NCBI GenBank assembly: GCA_001799195.1
Contig: MGSU01000007.1
Location: forward strand, 11,357-22,358
Length of the DNA: 11,002 bases
DNA from: Deltaproteobacteria bacterium RIFOXYA12_FULL_61_11
GTDB lineage: Bacteria > Bdellovibrionota_F > JAHFAK01 > YA12-FULL-61-11
Reading direction: 5' to 3'
How positions within the stretch are numbered: the stretch's first letter is position 1; each line of letters begins with the position of its first letter. The translations under genes and the position numbers were made by a program. Positions 10-11,002 of this stretch are shown piece by piece. The notes beneath the pieces were generated by a model. The model had not been told where the DNA came from. It made no database searches and saw nothing but the letters and a program-made list of their open reading frames with translations.

Positions 10-2805
10 TTGCCAAAGCCGTCCCGGGGTTCTAGGGTCGAACCGAGCGAGGATGAGCGGAACCGGCTCGCGGACGAATCGAGGCGAGGTATGGAGTTGA
101 TGGAGAAATGGTGCGAGGAGGGCCGCAGGAGCCTGCCCGAGGGATTTACGCTCCGTGCGGGCTATCCCAACCAGCGCAGTCTGCAGCAGTGTCGTGCCAG
201 ACGAGGGTTGGAGCCGGGAACCAAGGTTTTGGCAGGCTATCGCGCTCCGATCGTTCGTTGCCGACTATCGGGCGAGGAGCGACCTCGGGAGTTCGAAGTC
301 CGTGAGGTCGACCTGCCTATGTTACTCCACGAAGACGAGCAGCAGGCTCGTACCCACCTCTGGTTATTGCTCCGCTCCAGGCAAGGGGACGGAGAGGCGC
401 GACAGGTTCTCGAACAGATCCAGACCGAGGCCAATGAGACCACGAACCAGTATCTCTGCGACCGGAAGAGCACCGAGGACGACTACCTGGTGCCGTGCAC
501 CAGTGAGATCCAACACCGCGAAGCGACGATCAGCCACAAGGGTACCATCCTGCTGCGGTTGTGCCAGCAGGGATTTTCCGTGCCCGATTTCGCCATCATG
601 ACGGCGAAGAGTTACCTCTTGCCGCCTTCTGAACGCGAGGAACTCATCGTCCGAGTGTTCGAAACCCTGGAGGGGTTCCAACTCCCCACCTTCGGCCCGC
701 GTAAGCAACCCTTGGTCATTGCCCTGCGTTGCGCCATGCCGGTCTATATCCCCGGTATCATGTATACATTCCTCAACGTCGGAGTGACCACCGAGACCTT
801 CGACAAGGTGAGCGATTACTATGGGTCGGTCCCTGCGCAACGCATGTTCCTCAACAATCTCGGCAATTATCTCATGTGCCATGACCCGCGACTCTACAGG
901 GAGTTGGTCGAGGAGTTGCGGTTACAGCGCGCTACCGACGAGATCGCCGAGACCTTGCAACAGGTGAAGGAACTGGTTCTAGCCCTCGACGAGCGGTTCC
1001 TCCATGATGCTCGTTACCAGGCCGATTATTTCATCCGGCAGGCCTATCGTTACTACGACGACAACCAGGACCTCCTGCGCACCTTCGCCTGCCGCTCCGA
1101 TCACTATCCTTCGGTGATCTTCCAACGCATGGTCTGTACGGTGCGGGCGCCGCGGTCGCATGTCGGGGTTTTGCACAGTCGCAATCCCTTGGCCGGAAAA
1201 GGCATGCAACTCCATCTGGCCCGCGATATCTTCGGCGAAGAGATCATGACCGGACTCGTAGAACCGGAAGAGGTGAATTTCGTAGAAGCCGAAGAAATCA
1301 TTGACAGCTTCCCCGGGGTGCATCACTTCTCCGCGCTGGTCCCGGGTCTGGAACAGCTCTTTGCCGGGCCAGCCACGGTCGAATTCGCGGTCGAAGCAAC
1401 CGAACGCTATGAATTGTTCGCCTTACTCCAGCTCAACGAGGCCAATCTCTCGGGACGGGCTGCCTTTCTTGCCATCATGGACCTCTATCGACGCGGTCTG
1501 ATCGATCGGCAACGAGCTATCGAGCTGATCAGGCCCTACCACTTCACCCAAGTCGAATCCGGGACCATCTCCGAAGCCAGTCTGAACACGCTTCGCTCCT
1601 TCAGTCAGGGGGTTTCGATATTACCTCGTACCGCGGTCAGCGCTCGAGCCGCCTTCTCGACCACCAAAGCGCTCGAGTACAAGGAGGAAGGAGAGAAGGT
1701 CTGTCTGTTCAAAGACCGTCTCCTCCCGACCGATACCGTCATTTTGCGGGAAATGGATGCCATCATCTGCCTCACGCCGGCTGCCATCCATGCAGTTACC
1801 GTGTGTCAGGGCTATGGCATCCCTGGACTCCTCAGTCTGGGCAGGTTCGGCAATTCCTTTGGCCGGGACGAGCACGGCAGCCCTTGTTTCCTCAACCAGG
1901 CAGGTGAGCGTATCCATGAGGGGGACTGGGTTACCATCAGTAGCCGCCGACAGCTCCTCTATGTCGGGCGGGCAGTGTACGAACAGGCGAGGTTGTTGCG
2001 CTACCTGGCCGGAGAGACCGTGGAACTCAACGCCGAGGAGCGTACGCTCTATGCTGCTCTGGCCAAGGCCTATTTGGACTACCACCGGCTCGTGGAAGAC
2101 CTGGAACCCGGAGCCGTCGCCTCGCTGAACGATCTGGTCCGGCTGGTACGCACCGAGTTCAAACATCAGCCTGAGCGACAACAGCAATTGGTCAATGAAC
2201 GCTACGAGCGTGACCCGGAACACTACCTCGACGAGGTGCTGGCCTGCGAGATGGGGAACCACCTCAATCAACAGACCGTCTACCTGTTGCTCACCCCCGA
2301 ACGCCGGATTGATTTCTTCCACCGCGCGCTGCGCCGTTGCAAGGAATGCGGCCTCAGCGGCTTGGCGGCTGGTTCCTTCGTCCTGGGCCGCTTCGTCAAC
2401 CAACAGCATCCCGTGACCTTCTGGCAGGCCATGGACGAAGAGGAGATCTCACGGATGCTCGACGAGTGGGTGCGTTTCGAACAGTACATGAAGGTGCTGC
2501 ACCTGGTCGGGGAGAAGGAGGTGGGACGAGTACGGCAACAACTCGACGGGGTCTCCGTCGTGCCTCTCGAGATCAATACCGCTCGGTTGCGCCATTTCGT
2601 CCCCCTCAAGCTGGCAGGAAAGAATCTCGAAATCGCCGCGGCGTCCTTGTCCGAGGGGGCGAATCCTCAAACCCGCAAGGTGATCGAACTGCTCCTGGAA
2701 CCGTTCGGCGTCTTCTATCGCTACGATGCGGCGTGGTCCCTCGGGCAACTCGAAGAACTCTGCCGCAAGGAAGGTGTGTCCATGCCTTCAGCCGAGGACT
2801 GCTAG
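10..2805 (+). CDS. PPDK-like dikinase-family protein without the PEP/pyruvate barrel, novel C-terminus
   Basis: The middle of this 931-residue protein follows the PPDK order. HKG (K177) matches the GGKGA loop. RCAMPVYIPGIMYTFLNVG (240-258) matches the RSGA..MPGMMDT..NLG segment, keeping the ATP-binding arginine (R240). RNP..G (391-396) and GEEIMTG follow, then a linker like PPDK's before LQTR, and a swivelling domain LTPAAIHAV with candidate phospho-acceptor H594. In the family, ATP phosphorylates this histidine, which passes phosphate to an acceptor. PPDK residues are replaced: TGE reads AGK, AQGED reads IFGEE, QTR reads QLN, and the Gly-Gly and Thr-Ser before the histidine are missing. About 150 extra residues precede HKG. 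After about residue 660 there is no PEP/pyruvate barrel (no CRTEHMF-like motif) but an unrecognised, mostly helical-looking region with C777-x-x-C780. Start uncertain: TTG at 10 opens the frame, no in-frame stop lies to its left, and ATG at 91 has a good ribosome site. Acceptor and activity are unknown. Confidence 0.8.
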   Translation: MPKPSRGSRVEPSEDERNRLADESRRGMELMEKWCEEGRRSLPEGFTLRAGYPNQRSLQQCRARRGLEPGTKVLAGYRAPIVRCRLSGEERPREFEVREVDLPMLLHEDEQQARTHLWLLLRSRQGDGEARQVLEQIQTEANETTNQYLCDRKSTEDDYLVPCTSEIQHREATISHKGTILLRLCQQGFSVPDFAIMTAKSYLLPPSEREELIVRVFETLEGFQLPTFGPRKQPLVIALRCAMPVYIPGIMYTFLNVGVTTETFDKVSDYYGSVPAQRMFLNNLGNYLMCHDPRLYRELVEELRLQRATDEIAETLQQVKELVLALDERFLHDARYQADYFIRQAYRYYDDNQDLLRTFACRSDHYPSVIFQRMVCTVRAPRSHVGVLHSRNPLAGKGMQLHLARDIFGEEIMTGLVEPEEVNFVEAEEIIDSFPGVHHFSALVPGLEQLFAGPATVEFAVEATERYELFALLQLNEANLSGRAAFLAIMDLYRRGLIDRQRAIELIRPYHFTQVESGTISEASLNTLRSFSQGVSILPRTAVSARAAFSTTKALEYKEEGEKVCLFKDRLLPTDTVILREMDAIICLTPAAIHAVTVCQGYGIPGLLSLGRFGNSFGRDEHGSPCFLNQAGERIHEGDWVTISSRRQLLYVGRAVYEQARLLRYLAGETVELNAEERTLYAALAKAYLDYHRLVEDLEPGAVASLNDLVRLVRTEFKHQPERQQQLVNERYERDPEHYLDEVLACEMGNHLNQQTVYLLLTPERRIDFFHRALRRCKECGLSGLAAGSFVLGRFVNQQHPVTFWQAMDEEEISRMLDEWVRFEQYMKVLHLVGEKEVGRVRQQLDGVSVVPLEINTARLRHFVPLKLAGKNLEIAAASLSEGANPQTRKVIELLLEPFGVFYRYDAAWSLGQLEELCRKEGVSMPSAEDC
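81..93 (+). promoter_or_regulatory. Ribosome binding site and alternative ATG start for the PPDK-like gene
   Basis: GAGG at 81-84 lies six bases before an in-frame ATG at 91, and a second AGG sits closer to it. This would give a 904-residue protein starting MELMEKW. The 27 codons between TTG 10 and this ATG have mostly G or C in third positions, so they may also be coding. No ribosome site for TTG 10 can be judged because only nine bases precede it. Confidence 0.4.
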
Positions 2806-2907: not shown

Positions 2908-3720
2908 TTACGTCCTCAATGGTCGGGAGGAAGTTGAACCGAGATGTCGGCGGCGGGCGATGAGGGCCGCGCCGAGGGCTCCGACCAGATCCGGCCGGGG
3001 AGGGACCGAAATGGGAAGGCCGAGTTCTTCGGATAGAGCTCGGACCACGCCCGCGTTGTGAGCTACCCCGCCCGACATCGAAATAGAGAGGCCGGTGAGG
3101 GAAGGGGCGACTCGTCTGACCAACCCGGCCGTGCGGACGGCGATGGCGCGATGCAGCCCCCGTACGATGGAGGGCACTGCGGTTCCCCCTGCCAGGAGGG
3201 AGACTACTTCACTCTCGGCGAAGACGGTACACATGCTGCTCAAGGCCGAGGTGCTGGTGGTCGCGGCGTCGAGGTCCTGGAGTTCGGTGACCTCGATTTC
3301 GAGAGCCCGGGCCATGGCTTCGAGAAAACGTCCGGTGCCCGCGGCGCACTTGTCGTTCATGGCGAAATCCAGCACCTTGCCGGCGTCGAGGCGGATGGCC
3401 TTGCTGTCTTGACCGCCGATGTCGATGAGCAAGGTCGTGCGGGGCAGGAGGTCGGCGATGCCCTCGGCATGACAGGTGATTTCGGTCACCGCGGCCAGGC
3501 GATCAGCGACCCGATCGCGGCCGTAACCAGTCGAAACCACGACGACCTGAGCAGTAGAGGGGGGGTCGAGCGCGGCCAGGACTTCGGTCCTGGCCCTGGC
3601 TATGGCCTCGAGATTGCGCGCGCCCGTGGGGACGACGGCTCCGGCCAGGAACCGGCCCTCGCTGTCGATTGCAACCGCGTCGCAGGTCAGACTGCCGATG
3701 TCGAGGCCGAGGTAGATCAA
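2908..3720 (-). CDS. 2-hydroxyacyl-CoA dehydratase activator (ASKHA ATPase, HgdC/BcrD-type)
   Basis: This 270-residue protein matches the activator (archerase) family, whose homodimer holds one [4Fe-4S] cluster and uses ATP-driven opening to inject a low-potential electron into the dehydratase. Visible motifs are the first ASKHA phosphate loop LGLDIGSLTCDAV (4-16), the second loop IDIGGQDSKAI (99-109), NDKCAAGTGRFLEAMA with C125, SMCTVFAESEVVSLLAGG with C164, and the late motif MSGGVAHNAG (215-224). The two cysteines are 39 residues apart, the same spacing as Cys127 and Cys166 of the Acidaminococcus fermentans activator. The start is TTG at 3720: its TTG overlaps the TGA of the upstream gene (TTGA) and GAGG sits seven bases before it. 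The frame is open further upstream, but that part reads as a shadow of the neighbouring subunit gene. It is the last gene of the operon. HgdC-like and BcrD-like roles cannot be separated by eye. Confidence 0.93.
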   Translation of the reverse strand: MIYLGLDIGSLTCDAVAIDSEGRFLAGAVVPTGARNLEAIARARTEVLAALDPPSTAQVVVVSTGYGRDRVADRLAAVTEITCHAEGIADLLPRTTLLIDIGGQDSKAIRLDAGKVLDFAMNDKCAAGTGRFLEAMARALEIEVTELQDLDAATTSTSALSSMCTVFAESEVVSLLAGGTAVPSIVRGLHRAIAVRTAGLVRRVAPSLTGLSISMSGGVAHNAGVVRALSEELGLPISVPPRPDLVGALGAALIARRRHLGSTSSRPLRT

Positions 3721-4961
3721 GGTAGGACCTCGGCCGACAGTTCCCGCCGTTGGAGCAGGAGTTCGACGAAGGCCTGGAGTCGGGTACGGACCTGTCCCTC
3801 GGAAAAGTTCCGCGAGTCGATGCAATCTACCTCCAGGTTGAGGACCGGGACCTCGGCCCTGCGCAACCCGCGTTCGATCAGGCCACGGCTCCCGGTCCCC
3901 TGCTTGCAACCGAAGTGGCAGGGGTTGATGACCCCGTCCACGCGATAGCGCCGGACCAGGTCGAGGAGATGGGCGATTCGCACTTCGGCGGTGCCGCTGT
4001 AAGGGTGGAAGAGGATGCGTTCGGCCAGGCTCTGCAAGGGGTTCTCGGGATCCAGCGGAGGCCAGGTGATGTCGTTGAACTCATCGGCCACGATGACGGC
4101 ACCGTAGTCGGTTTCCAGGTCTTCGATCAGCTTGGACTTGAATTGCAGGCGGTTCTGCAACCACAGCAGCCGCAAGCGTTCACCGGTCTTCGGAGGGCGC
4201 TCGGCGCGGAGACGCAACTCGTCAAGCCAGGCGCCGGCCACGGTCTCGGCTTCGGCAGTCCCGAAGAACAGGGGCAGGACGATACCCAGGTTCTTGAGTT
4301 CGGTGCTGCGGATGGGCGAGGGCACGTCGGTGCAGCGTTCGAACACCTCGACCAATGAGGCCCGGGTGCGGTTCGAGGCAAGGATTGCCTCCGCCAGATC
4401 GGCTTCTGCCAGCCGGCGTCCGGTGATCGCGGAGACGTGGAGGACCAGTCTTCCGAGTTGGCGGGTCACGTACGAGGTGGCGGCTTCGCTGCGGTCGGTC
4501 GGCACATGGAGGACGAAGGGGCTGCGGCCGAGGATGCGCGAGGCGCTCTCGAGAGCGTACATGCCCGCGCTGCAAGGCTGCGAGGTCGCCAAGAAGAGGC
4601 GTGGCGGTGGTAACAGACGAGAGGTGATCACGCCGAGCGCGGCGCGGTGGTAACCGCAGGAGTCGGAAGAATAGCCGCATTGCTCGGCCGCCTCGAGCGT
4701 GGGGACGACCAGCCCGGCCGAGGCGAGCACGCCGCCGATGAATTCCGGATAGCACGCGGGGACGCCCATGGCGTTGAGGAGTTCGAAGGGAGTAGCGACT
4801 CCGCACCAGGCGGTCACGACCTCGGGATCACACAGGCGTCTGGCAAGACGCATGGCGGCCAGCGCAAAACGTTTGCGCGGGTTGGGCGCCTTGCCCTCGG
4901 CTTCGAGCTTGGCGGTCAAACCGTCGATGGTGGCGTCGAGGTAGGCGAGGACCTGGCTCAT
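3717..4961 (-). CDS. 2-hydroxyacyl-CoA dehydratase / benzoyl-CoA reductase-family subunit (larger, 414 aa)
   Basis: This is one of two different cluster-binding subunits of an activator-dependent enzyme that dehydrates 2-hydroxyacyl-CoA or reduces an acyl-CoA. Family signatures are VPACYPEF (68-74), YSSDSCGYHR (97-106), INPCHFGCKQGTGSRG (345-360), VPVLNLEVDCIDSRN (371-385) and the closing EGQVRTRLQAFVELL (388-402). Seven cysteines lie in or near these blocks: C70, C95, C102, C130, C348, C352 and C380. Some should bind the [4Fe-4S] cluster. The length fits the larger subunits of this family (roughly 400-430 residues). The start is ATG at 4961: it forms an ATGA overlap with the upstream stop and has GAGG six bases before it. 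The open frame further upstream overlaps the neighbouring gene and carries no family motif. The substrate cannot be read from sequence. The number of cysteines leaves open a more complex cluster, as in double-cubane relatives. Confidence 0.9.
   Translation of the reverse strand: MSQVLAYLDATIDGLTAKLEAEGKAPNPRKRFALAAMRLARRLCDPEVVTAWCGVATPFELLNAMGVPACYPEFIGGVLASAGLVVPTLEAAEQCGYSSDSCGYHRAALGVITSRLLPPPRLFLATSQPCSAGMYALESASRILGRSPFVLHVPTDRSEAATSYVTRQLGRLVLHVSAITGRRLAEADLAEAILASNRTRASLVEVFERCTDVPSPIRSTELKNLGIVLPLFFGTAEAETVAGAWLDELRLRAERPPKTGERLRLLWLQNRLQFKSKLIEDLETDYGAVIVADEFNDITWPPLDPENPLQSLAERILFHPYSGTAEVRIAHLLDLVRRYRVDGVINPCHFGCKQGTGSRGLIERGLRRAEVPVLNLEVDCIDSRNFSEGQVRTRLQAFVELLLQRRELSAEVLP
3718..3731 (-). 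promoter_or_regulatory. Ribosome binding site and coupled TTG start of the activator
   Basis: On the minus strand GAGG (3731-3728) precedes TTG (3720-3718) by seven bases, inside the last codons of the upstream subunit gene. TTG and the upstream TGA share two bases, which implies translational coupling. This decides the start, because the next residues, IYLGLDIGS, are the family's usual N-terminus. Confidence 0.75.
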
Positions 4962-6019
4962 GCGACACCTCGAGCGGTCAGGAGTTCGGCGAAGGCCTGC
5001 AGGCGGGTCCTCGCTTGGCCGGGGAGGTTCGGGCCGGCCTCGCCCTCCAGGACGAGCAGCGGACAATTGGCTTCCTGGAAGGCCCGGCGCAATTCCGGCA
5101 CCTTGGCCAGATAGGGATCGCAGTACTTGAGCGTCAGGAGCACCGCGCCGCGGGCCGAACATGCATGTGCGGCGGCGAGATGATGGGCGACCAGGGTGGA
5201 GGATCGTTCGCAGCGGCACAAGGTGGGACAGGGACTGCGGCCGAGCAACGCCGAAGCATAGGCCTCGAGGAGCGCCGGGGTGGAGAGCTCGGGAGCGAGC
5301 GCGAAGGCTACCTCGTGGGGGCGGTAGGCATCGCAGGTGCCGAGTCCGGTCACGGCAAGGCCGGCTTCGACCACCAGGTCGAAGTAGCGGGGATCGGGTT
5401 GGATAGTGCCGAAGAGATAGACCGGCACCGTGTTCGGATCCCTTGGAAGGGGTGGAGGTGCCAGGAAAGCGTCGATCCGTTCCAGGGCCTCGCCGACCGG
5501 GAGGTCGGTCAATTCCCGGAGCACGTTCATTGCTCCGGCAGGACCGGTCCGCACACCCTCGGTATGCACCTGGCCGCGGAGGCGTTCGAGGTGTTCGGCA
5601 AGCTCGTTCCGGAGAGCCAGACTCCGGTACAGGGCGTGCGCATGGAGCGGCCTACCGGTCAGTTCGGTCAGGCGCTGGCCGAGTTTAATCAGGCTGGCCG
5701 CGAAATAACGCATGCCTTCTTCGTCGGGACAAACGGGCAAGTCGAGGACCAGGACCCGGGCAGGTCCCCACGTTTCGAGCAGGGCGTCGGCCATGCGGCG
5801 CATGGCATCGCAGGAGACCACGACCAGGAAGAGGTCCTGGGGATCTGGCCAGGAGAAAATCCTCTCGAGAACCCCCTTGACGTGACCACACAGGTTGTCG
5901 TGGAGCATGCCCCCCGCCACTGCCGGGTCCTTCGCCGAGGGGACCAGCCGGCGTGACGTCAGACCAAAGGCATCGAACAGGGCCAACGGAGCGAAGGAAC
6001 AGGCATAGAGGACGGCCAT
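4958..6019 (-). CDS. 2-hydroxyacyl-CoA dehydratase / benzoyl-CoA reductase-family subunit (smaller, 353 aa)
   Basis: This is the first gene of the operon and is distantly related to the second subunit. The N-terminus MAVLYACSFAPLALFDAFGL matches the family opening (a Cys, Pro, then a hydrophobic stretch ending in Ala-x-Gly). Further motifs are DNLCGHVKG with C44, LVVVSCDAMRRM with C70, TLKYCDPY with C300, CPLLVLEGEAG (319-329) and the closing QARTRLQAFAELL (335-347). C44, C70 and C300 are the best candidates for three cysteine ligands of the [4Fe-4S] cluster. The start at ATG 6019 is chosen because GGAG stands six bases before it; GTG 6043 and ATG 6025 in the same frame have no properly spaced site. 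The C-terminus resembles that of the next gene at both DNA and protein level, indicating an old duplication. In the family, the two subunits form a heterodimer served by the activator. The substrate is unknown. Confidence 0.88.
   Translation of the reverse strand: MAVLYACSFAPLALFDAFGLTSRRLVPSAKDPAVAGGMLHDNLCGHVKGVLERIFSWPDPQDLFLVVVSCDAMRRMADALLETWGPARVLVLDLPVCPDEEGMRYFAASLIKLGQRLTELTGRPLHAHALYRSLALRNELAEHLERLRGQVHTEGVRTGPAGAMNVLRELTDLPVGEALERIDAFLAPPPLPRDPNTVPVYLFGTIQPDPRYFDLVVEAGLAVTGLGTCDAYRPHEVAFALAPELSTPALLEAYASALLGRSPCPTLCRCERSSTLVAHHLAAAHACSARGAVLLTLKYCDPYLAKVPELRRAFQEANCPLLVLEGEAGPNLPGQARTRLQAFAELLTARGVA
4959..4971 (-). promoter_or_regulatory. Ribosome binding site and ATGA start/stop overlap
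   Basis: Minus-strand GAGGTG (4971-4966) precedes ATG (4961-4959). The TGA stop of the upstream subunit gene occupies 4960-4958, giving a four-base ATGA overlap. This is a typical sign of translational coupling, as expected for two subunits needed in equal amounts. Confidence 0.8.
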
Positions 6020-6029
6020 GACCATCTCC
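6017..6029 (-). promoter_or_regulatory. Ribosome binding site deciding the first dehydratase subunit start
   Basis: Minus-strand GGAG (6029-6026) is followed by ATGGTC and then ATG at 6019-6017, a spacing of six bases. The nearer ATG at 6025 directly touches the GGAG and is an unlikely start. Confidence 0.6.
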
Positions 6030-6068
6030 GGACCGGACTTCACGAAAGGGCAGAGTCTCCTCTTCTCA

Positions 6069-7101: not shown

Positions 7102-10100
7102 TCACTGGGACGGCCGGCTGCAGCGGAAGCCGAAGGTCAGGTAGGCCAAATCGGGAACCACGGACTGGCGCCGGGCGTTGCGAAAGGCCGCCAGTTGGAC
7201 TTCTGCGAAGGATCCACCGCGTTGGACGCGTGAGGGTCCGGGGGTGAGATTACACGGATCTGAGATTGCCTCAGGAGAAGCATAGAAGTCGACAGCGTAG
7301 AAATCCCGGACCCATTCGCTGACATTGCCCTGCAGGTCCATGACCCCTCCCGAGCTGGCGCCGTCTTCGAACCAGCCGACCGGCGAGGTCGTGGCGAAAC
7401 CGTCGTTGAGGATCTCATCCTTCCAAACCAGCGGGCAATTCCTATCGCAGAGGTTCAGGCGAGGATAGGGCAGGTAGGCCAAGTCCCAGATCGGGCCCCA
7501 GGGGTAGGTTGTACCGAAATCCCCCTTGGCCGCGTATTCCCACTGCGCTTCGGTGGGGAGATCGGCGCCGAGCCATTGGCAATAGGCCCGGGCCTGGTCC
7601 CAGGTGACGCAGTTCATGGGGTGATTCTCGAAGCCGGGGAGTTCGAGGTTGGAAACTCCGTCATCGGTGCAGGTCGGAGTGCTGGGACAGGCTCCTGCGA
7701 GCAGACAATATTCGTATTCGCCGGCCGTGACCGGGTTGGTCAGCAGTTCGAACGGGCTCAGGTCGACTTGATGGGTTGGCCGCTCGTCGTCCCCCCAGTC
7801 GTTGCTCCCCATGATGAAGGGACCTCCCGAGAAGGCCAACCAGGTCGGGATCACCTCGTAGTTGATCGTGTCCGAAACGACCGTCGAAACATTGCCGTAG
7901 AGATCGAGAAACCAGGCGTAGACGGTCTTCTGGCCATAGCCGGGAGAGAGCTCGAAGAAGGCCTCGGCAAAGAGCACGCTGTGCAGCGGCAGGTAGTTCC
8001 AACAGGCGTGACCATGTTCGGGTGGGGCGGGGTCTTCTTTGAAACAGGAGGCGATCACGCCGCCGGCATCGCTGACCGTGAAGGCGAGCACGACCTGTCG
8101 GAAGGGGGTGGTTTCTTCGCCTCGGTTGAGCTCGACCATGGTCTCGGCCGGGGGAAGCTGCTCAGCATCATTGCTGCCGTCCCTGGCGCAACGGAAGCCG
8201 AGGTCTTCGAAGGCGGCGTTCATGGGCTCGAACCTACGGGTATCAGTCCGGAGTTCGCCAGTGCCCGCGGCGAGATAGCTCCCTCCCCGGGCAACCCTGA
8301 CGCCGCGATCGTCGGATGCCTCGGGGTCGATGGTGTTGGCAGCGAGGAGATAGAAGGGAGCTCCCTCGGCACAGAGAGGGTCGTCGGAACCGAGGCAATC
8401 GCCGCAGTCGCGGACCCATTCGGCGATATTGCCGCTGAGGTCGAGCAGTCCGGTAGGGTTCTCTCCCTCGGGGAAACGGCCGACCGGCGCGGTTTCGAGG
8501 AAATGTTCGTTCGTGCAGAGAGCTGGACCGCAGTTGACGAGGACAGGATCGTCAGTGAAAAGCTCCCCCCAAGGGAAAGCGAGGGCTTCAGGGCCGCGGG
8601 CAGCATACTCCCACTGTGCCTCGGTGGGCAGGTCGCTTTCGATCCAGAGACAGTAAGTCCGTGCCTGAGCCCAGGTGAGGGCGGTGACCGGGTGGCCCTC
8701 GTGTCCGGGACGATGATACGTCGAGTTCGAGGGCGGCAAATCGCAGACCCCAGCAGCGACACAGGACCCATACTCGGTCACGTCGACCTCCTGGGCTTGG
8801 AGGGAGAAGGGGGTCAGATAGACCCGGTGGACGGGACGGTTCGGAGGATCGCCACCCGCGTTGCCTTGGAAGACCGACCCGGCCGGCAGGTCAATGAAAC
8901 GGTTAGCAGGGAAGACCGGTGACCAATAGTCGAGGTCGAGAGCCAGGTTGGGAGAGGTATTGCCGCTCTTGTCCCGGACTCTGAGGAGCAGCCGATGGCG
9001 GCCTTCATGGTAGGCGAGATTGAAGGGTACCTCGAGGTCGAGGGGGCTGCCGCCATTCACGATTCTCCAGCACGGATCACCGATGGGTACACTCTCTCGA
9101 TATTCAATACAGACCGCATAGACTCCGACCTCATCCGTTGCCGTCAGATGCAGCGACAAGTTCCGCGAGGGGCTGTAGTCACCGCCCCCGGCTAAGGCGA
9201 AGCTGGTCACCATTGGGGCTATGAGGTCGTCGGCCAGGCGATCGATGCTGTCCTCGACTGAGCCCGCCACATTTCCGGACGTGTCCTTCAACCAGAGATG
9301 CAGGGTCCGTTGACCGAGAGTATCTCCGAGGTCGTAGCCGACGGTCTTGTCGAGGAGTTGTTGCACGATGAGCACGGTCCAGCAGGGGGAGTCGAGAGAT
9401 GGTGTCCCGTTGTCTTCGGTCAGGCAGTATTGCCATATTCCGCGTTCGTCGTGACCACCGATGCGGGCACTGACCGACGAGAGCGTGGTATAGCCGTCCC
9501 CATTGTCCAGGACCAGCGAGAGGTCGGTGGGCGGGATGAGATCCGGGGGACGCAGATAGATGGTATCTCGAACGCTGACCGAGAGGTTGCCGGAGAGATC
9601 GGTATACCACAAGTACACGGTCTTCGAGCCCTCGCCCGCGCCGAGGGTGAAGCTCACCGTCTCCTGGTGATGGTTTTGCGGTGGGAGTGGAACTACGCAG
9701 GCCGAGGTGCCCGTTGGTGGAGCGGGGTCTTCCCGGAGGCAATACCATGCGAGGGCTTCGTCGTCGCGGGCGGTGATTGTCGCGGAGACCGCGGTGACCG
9801 TGGTCTCCAGCGCCCCTCCCTCCAACACGAGTTCGAGATTGGTGGGCGCGGTGAAATCGGGGAGATCTAAGACGAACGAGTGGCGCAGCACCGGGGAGGG
9901 GGTCCCAGCGTGGTCGTACCCCCTAAGCTCGAGGAAGTGCTCTCCCTGCCCTGTCACGGTGAGGTCGAGCGGGGAGGTGCAGTGCGTGATCAGCGCGAAG
10001 GCATCCAACTGGCAGGTATAGCTCAGCTCGGTCGAGCTACCGAACACAACCCGGAGGTCCGTGCTGGTGAGCACAATCGGAGGGGTAGGTAGGAAGTGGA

Positions 10101-11002
10101 TTTCGGGTACGACGAGGGTTTCGAAGAGATGGACAATCGGTTCGGCATGGTTGCCTGCCTCGTCGAAGCCTTCGAGGGTGAAGCGGTATTTGGCAGGAGT
10201 GTCGAGGTTGACCTTTCTCCACGGCGAAGTACAGACCTCGTCGGCCACGAGTATGGCTGAGTTCTCCAGGCGGCAGCGGGTCGTCACTCGCTCATCGGCC
10301 GAGAAGACGAAGGCGGCCTCCCGTTCGTAGTGATAACTCGCCGGAGCCGAGAGGAGGGTCAGGCGAGGGCTTCGCAGGTCAACGGAAAAACTGTGTCCGA
10401 GGGGGAGGGAGCGGTTACCCGCGGGATCGACGGCGGTGACGGTGACAAGGTGTTCGCCCTGGAGGAGGCTGGTCGCGCGGAAGGGGGAGATGCATCCGAG
10501 TGGGACAGCAGCATCGAGTGCGCAGGTGAAGGTGACGGGCTCGTCTGCTTCGAACCGCAGCTCCAGCTCGGGACTCTTGAGGTTCAAGAGGGGAGTACCG
10601 GTGAAGGAGAGCTTCGGCGGGGTTAGATCAACCTGGAAGGAGTGTTCGAGTTCGGTTTCGTTGCCGGCACGATCGGCTACGCTCAGTTCGAGGAGGTGAG
10701 GCCCCTCACTCAATTCGCGCAGGAGCAAGGGAGAAGTACAGCCGGGTAGCATGGTACCGTCGAGTCGGCAGTGGAGCGTCGCATTGCGCTCCGCCGTGAA
10801 GGAGATATCCAAGGCTGTCGCGGAGAGGACGGCTGGCGGCACGGGGGAGAAAGCCACCGCGGGAGGAGTCAGGTCGATACCCAGGGTGAGGACGAGCGGA
10901 CTGGGGTCGACGTTGCCGAGGAGGTCCACGGCACGGAGTTCCAAGTAGTGGGTACCCTCGACGAGAGCCTCGAGCAGGAAGGGATCGTCGCACGGCTGCC
11001 AG
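7102..11002 (-). CDS. Giant secreted multi-domain protein, Ig-like repeats and two FGE-sulfatase domains (5' end outside window)
   Basis: The frame is open to the right edge. The codon at 10944 is an internal TTG leucine in repeat sequence (THYLELRAVD), so the start lies outside and 1299 residues are visible. Counting from 10944, the order is: end of one Ig-like repeat; four complete type A repeats (28-107, 108-190, 191-277, 278-363) with the pattern C-x-L-(D/E)...C-(T/I)-SP...(D)-x-AGN; three type B repeats (366-465, 469-568, 574-673); an FGE-sulfatase domain (680-922); a fourth type B repeat (930-1031); and a C-terminal FGE-sulfatase domain (1034-1277). Both FGE domains have LPTEAQWEYAA, L(S/Q)GN..EWVRD, RGGS and GFRC. 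Neither has the catalytic cysteine pair after RGGS that true formylglycine-generating enzymes use. The many paired cysteines suggest export and disulfides. The signal peptide and any anchor would be upstream. A structural or binding role is inferred; ligand unknown. Confidence 0.88.
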   Translation of the reverse strand, partial: WQPCDDPFLLEALVEGTHYLELRAVDLLGNVDPSPLVLTLGIDLTPPAVAFSPVPPAVLSATALDISFTAERNATLHCRLDGTMLPGCTSPLLLRELSEGPHLLELSVADRAGNETELEHSFQVDLTPPKLSFTGTPLLNLKSPELELRFEADEPVTFTCALDAAVPLGCISPFRATSLLQGEHLVTVTAVDPAGNRSLPLGHSFSVDLRSPRLTLLSAPASYHYEREAAFVFSADERVTTRCRLENSAILVADEVCTSPWRKVNLDTPAKYRFTLEGFDEAGNHAEPIVHLFETLVVPEIHFLPTPPIVLTSTDLRVVFGSSTELSYTCQLDAFALITHCTSPLDLTVTGQGEHFLELRGYDHAGTPSPVLRHSFVLDLPDFTAPTNLELVLEGGALETTVTAVSATITARDDEALAWYCLREDPAPPTGTSACVVPLPPQNHHQETVSFTLGAGEGSKTVYLWYTDLSGNLSVSVRDTIYLRPPDLIPPTDLSLVLDNGDGYTTLSSVSARIGGHDERGIWQYCLTEDNGTPSLDSPCWTVLIVQQLLDKTVGYDLGDTLGQRTLHLWLKDTSGNVAGSVEDSIDRLADDLIAPMVTSFALAGGGDYSPSRNLSLHLTATDEVGVYAVCIEYRESVPIGDPCWRIVNGGSPLDLEVPFNLAYHEGRHRLLLRVRDKSGNTSPNLALDLDYWSPVFPANRFIDLPAGSVFQGNAGGDPPNRPVHRVYLTPFSLQAQEVDVTEYGSCVAAGVCDLPPSNSTYHRPGHEGHPVTALTWAQARTYCLWIESDLPTEAQWEYAARGPEALAFPWGELFTDDPVLVNCGPALCTNEHFLETAPVGRFPEGENPTGLLDLSGNIAEWVRDCGDCLGSDDPLCAEGAPFYLLAANTIDPEASDDRGVRVARGGSYLAAGTGELRTDTRRFEPMNAAFEDLGFRCARDGSNDAEQLPPAETMVELNRGEETTPFRQVVLAFTVSDAGGVIASCFKEDPAPPEHGHACWNYLPLHSVLFAEAFFELSPGYGQKTVYAWFLDLYGNVSTVVSDTINYEVIPTWLAFSGGPFIMGSNDWGDDERPTHQVDLSPFELLTNPVTAGEYEYCLLAGACPSTPTCTDDGVSNLELPGFENHPMNCVTWDQARAYCQWLGADLPTEAQWEYAAKGDFGTTYPWGPIWDLAYLPYPRLNLCDRNCPLVWKDEILNDGFATTSPVGWFEDGASSGGVMDLQGNVSEWVRDFYAVDFYASPEAISDPCNLTPGPSRVQRGGSFAEVQLAAFRNARRQSVVPDLAYLTFGFRCSRPSQ
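7114..7845 (-). other. Second, C-terminal FGE-sulfatase domain
   Basis: The domain begins at WLAFSGGPFIMGSNDWGDD, with the family's G-x-F-x-M-G-S opening, and continues with NPVTAGEYEYC, LPTEAQWEYAAKGD, MDLQGNVSEWVRDFY, VQRGGSFAEVQLAAF and FGFRCSRP. It ends the protein. No cysteine follows RGGSF within the stretch where the catalytic pair should be, so a structural or ligand-binding use of the fold is more likely. Confidence 0.87.
7852..8157 (-). repeat. Fourth type B Ig-like repeat, between the two FGE domains
   Basis: The segment has SCFKEDPAPP and HACW (C967 and C981 counted from 10944), then KTVYAWFLDLYGNVS, matching the type B repeats upstream. Its position makes the C-terminal half look like a duplicated unit of one type B repeat plus one FGE domain. 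Confidence 0.75.
8179..8907 (-). other. First FGE-sulfatase domain of the giant protein
   Basis: The domain runs from FIDLPAGSVFQGN through VDVTEYGSCV, LPTEAQWEYAARG, LDLSGNIAEWVRDCGDC and VARGGSYLAAGTGE to LGFRCARD. After RGGSY, human SUMF1-type enzymes carry the two active cysteines. Here the segment reads LAAGTGE, so formylglycine formation is not expected. The fold is kept, and the domain has six additional cysteines that may form disulfides. Confidence 0.85.
8926..9849 (-). repeat. Array of three type B Ig-like repeats
   Basis: Three repeats of about 100 residues share L-x-L-x-x-G near the start, a cysteine followed by an acidic pair (YCLRED, YCLTED, VCIEY), a second cysteine 13-14 residues later (usually CW), and a closing (T/R)-(V/L)-x-L-W-x-x-D-x-SGN strand. 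A fourth copy lies at 7852-8157, between the two FGE domains. The 9714-9735 and 8021-8040 segments, both encoding EDPAPP, remain nearly identical in DNA. Confidence 0.75.
9856..10863 (-). repeat. Array of four type A Ig-like repeats
   Basis: Four repeats of 80-87 residues share a Pro-rich entry, a cysteine followed by a (R/A/Q)-L-D or RLE, a second cysteine in a (T/I)SP motif 10-14 residues later, then G-x-H-x-L and a D-x-AGN-like turn, ending in a hydrophobic strand and V-D-L. Cysteine pairs are C59/C69, C141/C151, C224/C238 and C311/C322, counted from 10944. The part from 10870 to the right edge belongs to one more repeat. Repeats have diverged clearly at DNA level, so this is an old array. 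Confidence 0.8.

Follow-up and report, generated by a model that had tools for sequence, protein, structure and literature searches.

We have found, at one end of an 11,002-nucleotide stretch of the genome of Deltaproteobacteria bacterium RIFOXYA12_FULL_61_11 (the window, G000:C7:11357-22358, from a genome in 342 contigs), a gene whose product we are inclined, with some reserve, to place in an undescribed family of dikinases derived from pyruvate, phosphate dikinase (PPDK). The family has an all-helical putative acceptor domain and a PAAIH loop, and its members would either serve an unknown acceptor or be a new type of regulatory histidine kinase. Whether the window protein itself is an ATP-dependent histidine phosphotransferase, derived from PPDK, that serves a putative non-pyruvate acceptor, as its sequence and predicted structure suggest, we consider a question with about equal chances on both sides. 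PPDK-type dikinases share one module, an ATP-grasp domain plus a mobile histidine domain, that is re-used with different acceptors. The description as a derivative of PPDK in which the acceptor part has changed is supported by the domain architecture, by the retained set of residues equivalent to Lys22, Arg92, Glu323, Gln335 and the histidine of PPDK, and by the existence of a stable family.

The gene is complete, codes for 904 amino acids and occupies positions 91..2805 of the + strand, from a probable ATG at 91 to a stop at 2803-2805. It is the first gene on the + strand, and no earlier stop codon interrupts its reading frame between the window edge and that stop. In the original prediction the span was 10-2805; the stop stands, and the TTG at 10 is the less likely start, since alignments with the paralogue in the same genome and with the homologues begin close to the ATG at 91, which is probably the true one. 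An 8-N gap lies directly 5' of the window start, and the true start could lie inside it.

The protein starts with a domain absent from PPDK (residues 1-129; 91..477, +), followed by a PPDK-type ATP-grasp domain (residues 130-490; 478..1560, +), the phosphohistidine or swivel domain (residues 491-632; 1561..1986, +) and a C-terminal all-helical domain of 272 amino acids (residues 633-904; 1987..2802, +) in the place of the PEP/pyruvate TIM barrel. Both the fold and the order of PPDK are present in the ATP-grasp and swivel domains. The PPDK family model TIGR01828, of 865 positions, aligned through positions 18-517 with residues 147-640 (E 1.7e-28) and had no match further on; the score was 99 bits against a curated cut-off of 843.45, whereas the genome's own PPDK covers the model end to end with 1258 bits. 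In each of the nine members scanned, the only family matches in this part were to PPDK, and they extended no further than the swivel domain. We also examined a full-length AlphaFold2 model with a mean pLDDT of 75, for which ten sequences of the family were used. Its residues 130-635 aligned with the PPDK structure 1KBL (Z 27.5 and rmsd 10.6 for 458 residues; so large an rmsd would be normal where one domain swings), and the swivel part alone aligned with 2FM4, an NMR structure of the PPDK phosphoryl carrier domain, with Z 16.0 and rmsd 2.2 over 127 residues. The proposal that PPDK-like segments occur here in the right order is borne out by these matches; the extension in front of them is real too, with its size reduced from about 150 to about 130 residues by the probable start at ATG 91. 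A profile of this N-terminal domain found no relative among PDB sequences; R71, D74, L78, R97, D100 and E129 are invariant in it across the aligned members.

The C-terminal barrel is missing, as had been proposed. PF02896, the Pfam family of the PEP barrel, is absent from the window protein even at E<=1, and the region folded alone gave about 15 helices and no strand (pLDDT 86.5). A hidden PEP barrel is ruled out by these two results, and the fold search recovered none; the unrecognised region of about 270 residues in the original prediction corresponds to the helical domain. No Pfam family and no entry of a viral library matched this domain, and a Foldseek search against the PDB reached no better than E 0.21, with the threshold at E<=0.001. 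The best structural look-alike was the cytosolic domain of MgtE (VIA Z 7.0, rmsd 3.4 over 118 residues, noise level for helical proteins), and the sub-threshold ones, MgtE-N, PUF and HEAT/TOG-type helical repeats, are generic alpha-solenoids that are likewise at noise level. Helical-repeat arrangements of these types are common binding architectures. When the domain profile was compared with PDB sequences, the best hits (E 0.038) were chains named as protein-kinase-domain proteins, which we judged to be chance. The absence of matches would not be proof of a new fold.

The same layout was found elsewhere. A second copy in the window genome is 48% identical over the shared length, a scan of genome contigs revealed members in a Candidatus Krumholzibacteriia MAG and in a Planctomycetota MAG, and searches within phyla added five (full-length or cut by contig ends) in the phylum of the first MAG and one in Planctomycetota. 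The total is 10 copies in 9 genomes from at least three phyla, plus one C-terminal remnant in genome G262. Besides the window protein, seven members have the full layout (the paralogue included) and two are incomplete. One of the copies, in G102, is truncated by the contig end. The Planctomycetota copy L039:6400-8550 (+) is either broken as a gene or wrongly assembled, given that it is in two frames near the N-terminus, loses similarity after about residue 685 and lacks the C-terminal domain. The remnant (L055:1501-1794, on G262:C322) retains only the last 98 or so residues of the helical domain and, judged by its sequence, is a decayed second copy, G262 having an intact one as well. The recurrence of the layout in at least three bacterial phyla indicates a real enzyme family; a sequencing chimera or assembly artefact, which the collection of homologues might have exposed, is ruled out by independent homologues built in the same way. 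The N-terminal and helical C-terminal domains thus appear, from sequences and models, to replace the barrel as a stable unit in several phyla.

The family is rare. It was detected in 1 of 386 broadly drawn genomes (the window genome itself), in 6 of 80 from the phylum of G059 and in 2 of 392 from that of G060; the phylum of the window genome is represented by just one further genome among those searched. No member was found in the viral contigs searched, the plasmid search returned ordinary or short PPDKs only, and an anti-phage library gave no match. None of the libraries scanned (NCBIfam, Pfam and PADLOC) has an entry for the family itself, and we found no description of it in the literature searched, which mostly did not extend to subscription journals and preprints.

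In the phylogenetic tree the members are monophyletic (support 100/100) on a stem of length 5.4, and divide into two subclades in each of which the phyla are mixed. The clade stands apart from the actinobacterial short PPDKs; the tree does not resolve its placement among the PPDK subgroups, and the PEP-synthase-like outgroup is on a very long branch. The closest pair (L049 and L050) had a dN/dS of 0.08 overall and of 0.076–0.098 per segment, the C-terminal domain (0.085) being as constrained as the ATP-grasp domain (0.076), so every domain is under purifying selection in this pair. The two more distant pairs gave 0.29–0.31 overall; in the comparison of the window gene with its paralogue, synonymous sites are close to saturated.

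Profile searches showed that a canonical PPDK is also present in eight of the nine genomes and missing only from the small G060 assembly (the PPDK genes of G102 and G262 are each broken up between contigs, and the pieces from G262 score below the cut-off when taken singly). This coexistence indicates that the family is an addition beside PPDK and not a replacement. The window genome has in addition further PEP-synthase-like proteins, besides its PPDK and two family members, on contigs G000:C27, C243, C26 and C174 (loci L097, L106 and L124), with ATP-grasp and/or swivel parts; one stretch at C243 contains an in-frame TGA.

We have compared the neighbouring ORFs all against all and no family-specific neighbour recurs. 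The only matches were generic, to sensor-kinase domains and to a tail domain common to several surface-type proteins. One pair of neighbouring regions, L049:2459-2800 versus L052:11028-11882 and 14423-15061, consists of short ORF stretches with 73–77% identity that are similar on both strands; neither Rfam nor tRNA searches matched these stretches. In the window no RNA feature was found near the dikinase gene, and the contig of the paralogue has one tRNA, about 7 kb from it. The window gene is convergent with a 2-hydroxyacyl-CoA dehydratase trio (2908-6043, −), formed by an acyl-CoA dehydratase activase of the BcrAD/BadFG family and two 2-hydroxyglutaryl-CoA dehydratase D-type subunits. We treated the trio as a bystander because homologues of the dikinase gene occur without it. 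The two D-type subunits scored low against all named reductases and dehydratases, and a second large activase-type protein is found at L004:2-2773 (−). The remainder of the window includes a large surface-type protein (7102-11001, −) that combines bacterial Ig-like repeats with a pair of FGE-sulfatase (formylglycine-generating-enzyme-like) domains and continues past the window end. On contig G000:C81, one gene away from the dikinase paralogue, there is a circularly permuted enolase-like protein (L005:1899-3560, −), with the enolase barrel first (residues 43-309 versus chain 141-389) and the N-domain last (374-507 versus 23-142), in which motifs of the NEGG, NQIGT, SHRS and STG type are readable. 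A search of 366 genomes, run without a positive control, gave no strong relative of it, and we found no paper on permuted enolases in the literature searched.

The positions that we compared with PPDK, namely Lys22, Arg92, Asp321, Glu323, Gln335 and Arg337, are its ATP/phosphate sites. Residues were mapped on canonical PPDK numbering, which was checked against the 1DIK alignment. On the + strand, Lys22 corresponds to K150 (538..540), Arg92 to R213 (727..729), Glu323 to E431 (1381..1383) and Gln335 to Q447 in the segment Q447-x-N449 (1429..1437), and all of them are retained in 10 of 10 members. The catalytic-type histidine, PPDK His455, is His567 (codon 1789-1791), kept in the nine members that cover the site. 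With the ATP-grasp and swivel domains in the same order, this is what the family has in common with PPDK (TIGR01828, 1KBL/1DIK). Unlike PPDK, it has no barrel, has the added domains of about 130 and 272 amino acids at its ends, and has replaced other active-site elements. At the Asp321 position, two residues before E431, four members have Thr and six Met; Arg337 is Asn in all ten; and the GGxTSH(AA) signature has become xPAAIH in the nine that cover the loop (T-P-A-A-I-H in the window protein, residues 562-567, 1774..1791). All six positions are present in 30 of 30 canonical PPDKs aligned, with the GGxTSH loop fixed too, and in three short PPDKs (two of them PRK05878-like by label) everything was kept except one Asp321. 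Mutant structures of PPDK in the PDB include R337A, K22A and T453A. With Asp321, Arg337 and the glycine loop replaced in the whole family, catalysis could be altered or lost. The GG motif before the histidine is, according to PMC12167813, one of the key elements conserved in the swivel domains of dikinases. However, rifampin phosphotransferase (RPH) needs Lys22 and Arg117 and can dispense with the Mg-binding Glu297 (PMC4844700), so that an altered residue set need not mean a dead enzyme.

In the mechanism that we propose, ATP bound in the ATP-grasp domain would phosphorylate (or pyrophosphorylate) His567, the swivel domain would then turn to the helical C-terminal domain, and this domain would bind or present the actual acceptor, which would be either a partner protein or a small molecule different from pyruvate and would receive the phosphate. 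The enzyme would act alongside the cell's ordinary PPDK without taking its place. There are precedents for dikinases with the acceptor part changed for small molecules, RPH (PMC4844700) and HpeHI/PpsAB (PMC12167813). RPH applies the dikinase logic with another acceptor-binding domain (PMC4844700), and in the two-component phenolic dikinases HpeHI, CreHI and PpsAB the ATP-grasp and swivel modules are coupled to a non-pyruvate acceptor part, split into two proteins that are described as nearer to PEP synthase/RPH than to PPDK (PMC12167813). The likeness to rifampin phosphotransferase and phenylphosphate synthase that was originally drawn is therefore sound as analogy and not as kinship, both being on the PEP synthase/RPH side. 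Besides, the order in RPH is ATP-grasp, acceptor domain and histidine domain, whereas here it is ATP-grasp, histidine domain and helical domain. RPH models (NF041857; NCBIfam) gave no match to the window protein at E<=1, and neither did the PEP synthase model TIGR01418, which also had none at E<=0.001 in nine of nine members. Counting against a phosphotransferase are the residue replacements present in every member, the lack of a recurring family-specific neighbour and the noise-level look-alikes of the helical domain, and no acceptor can be named.

By analogy, the closest functional precedent would be the mycobacterial VadK (Rv1127c), a PPDK derivative without the barrel that autophosphorylates on His422; it is a regulatory kinase that binds methylcitrate-cycle enzymes and tunes flux (PMC13400623). 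This precedent gives a regulatory derivative, one of the two options of the original prediction together with a dikinase-type phosphotransferase, more weight than it received there. The original interpretation is supported in part: the data favour a PPDK derivative whose acceptor part has changed, and by sequence either of the two options may apply. A histidine kinase of the VadK type, which would autophosphorylate and modulate metabolic enzymes through the helical domain with no small-molecule product, is a possibility that we hold tentatively. The all-helical domain with its sub-threshold repeat-type look-alikes and the canonical PPDK retained alongside fit such a role, and the family shares with VadK and the PRK05878 short PPDKs the descent from PPDK, the loss of the barrel and the kept histidine. 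Yet in VadK and the short PPDKs of actinobacteria the chain stops with the swivel domain, whereas the window family has added domains and is, in the tree, a separate clade with a long stem. The window protein scored 84.7 bits with PRK05878, for which the cut-off is 456, and the family has lost the GGxTSH loop and the Arg337 that the three sampled short PPDKs keep.

It is rather improbable that the family consists of pseudo-dikinases, in which nucleotide binding and swivel motion would serve as a sensor or scaffold and phosphate transfer would be lost. The fixed changes of Asp321, Arg337 and the GG motif, otherwise key in dikinase swivel domains (PMC12167813), could be read in this way, but every member has kept the remaining residues and the histidine wherever it covers them, and the tolerance of RPH to the loss of Glu297 indicates that single site losses need not kill activity (PMC4844700). 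That PEP is still made or used through a barrel in trans, from a separate PEP-barrel protein or a PPDK dimer, is very hard to believe: some dikinases are split and have their subunits in trans (HpeHI and PpsAB; PMC12167813), and eight of the nine genomes have a canonical PPDK at hand, but when the window genome was searched with PPDK and PEP synthase profiles, its canonical PPDK alone showed the barrel half, and the extra helical domain and the family-wide change of Arg337 would be left unexplained.

The changed-acceptor PPDK derivative described here would be a further solution for the change of acceptor besides the known ones, separate from VadK. As it differs at positions where all 30 of the aligned canonical PPDKs agree, the family can be used to test the residue needs of the phosphohistidine step. 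An automatic label of pyruvate, phosphate dikinase would put the wrong reaction into the metabolic models of these uncultured lineages.
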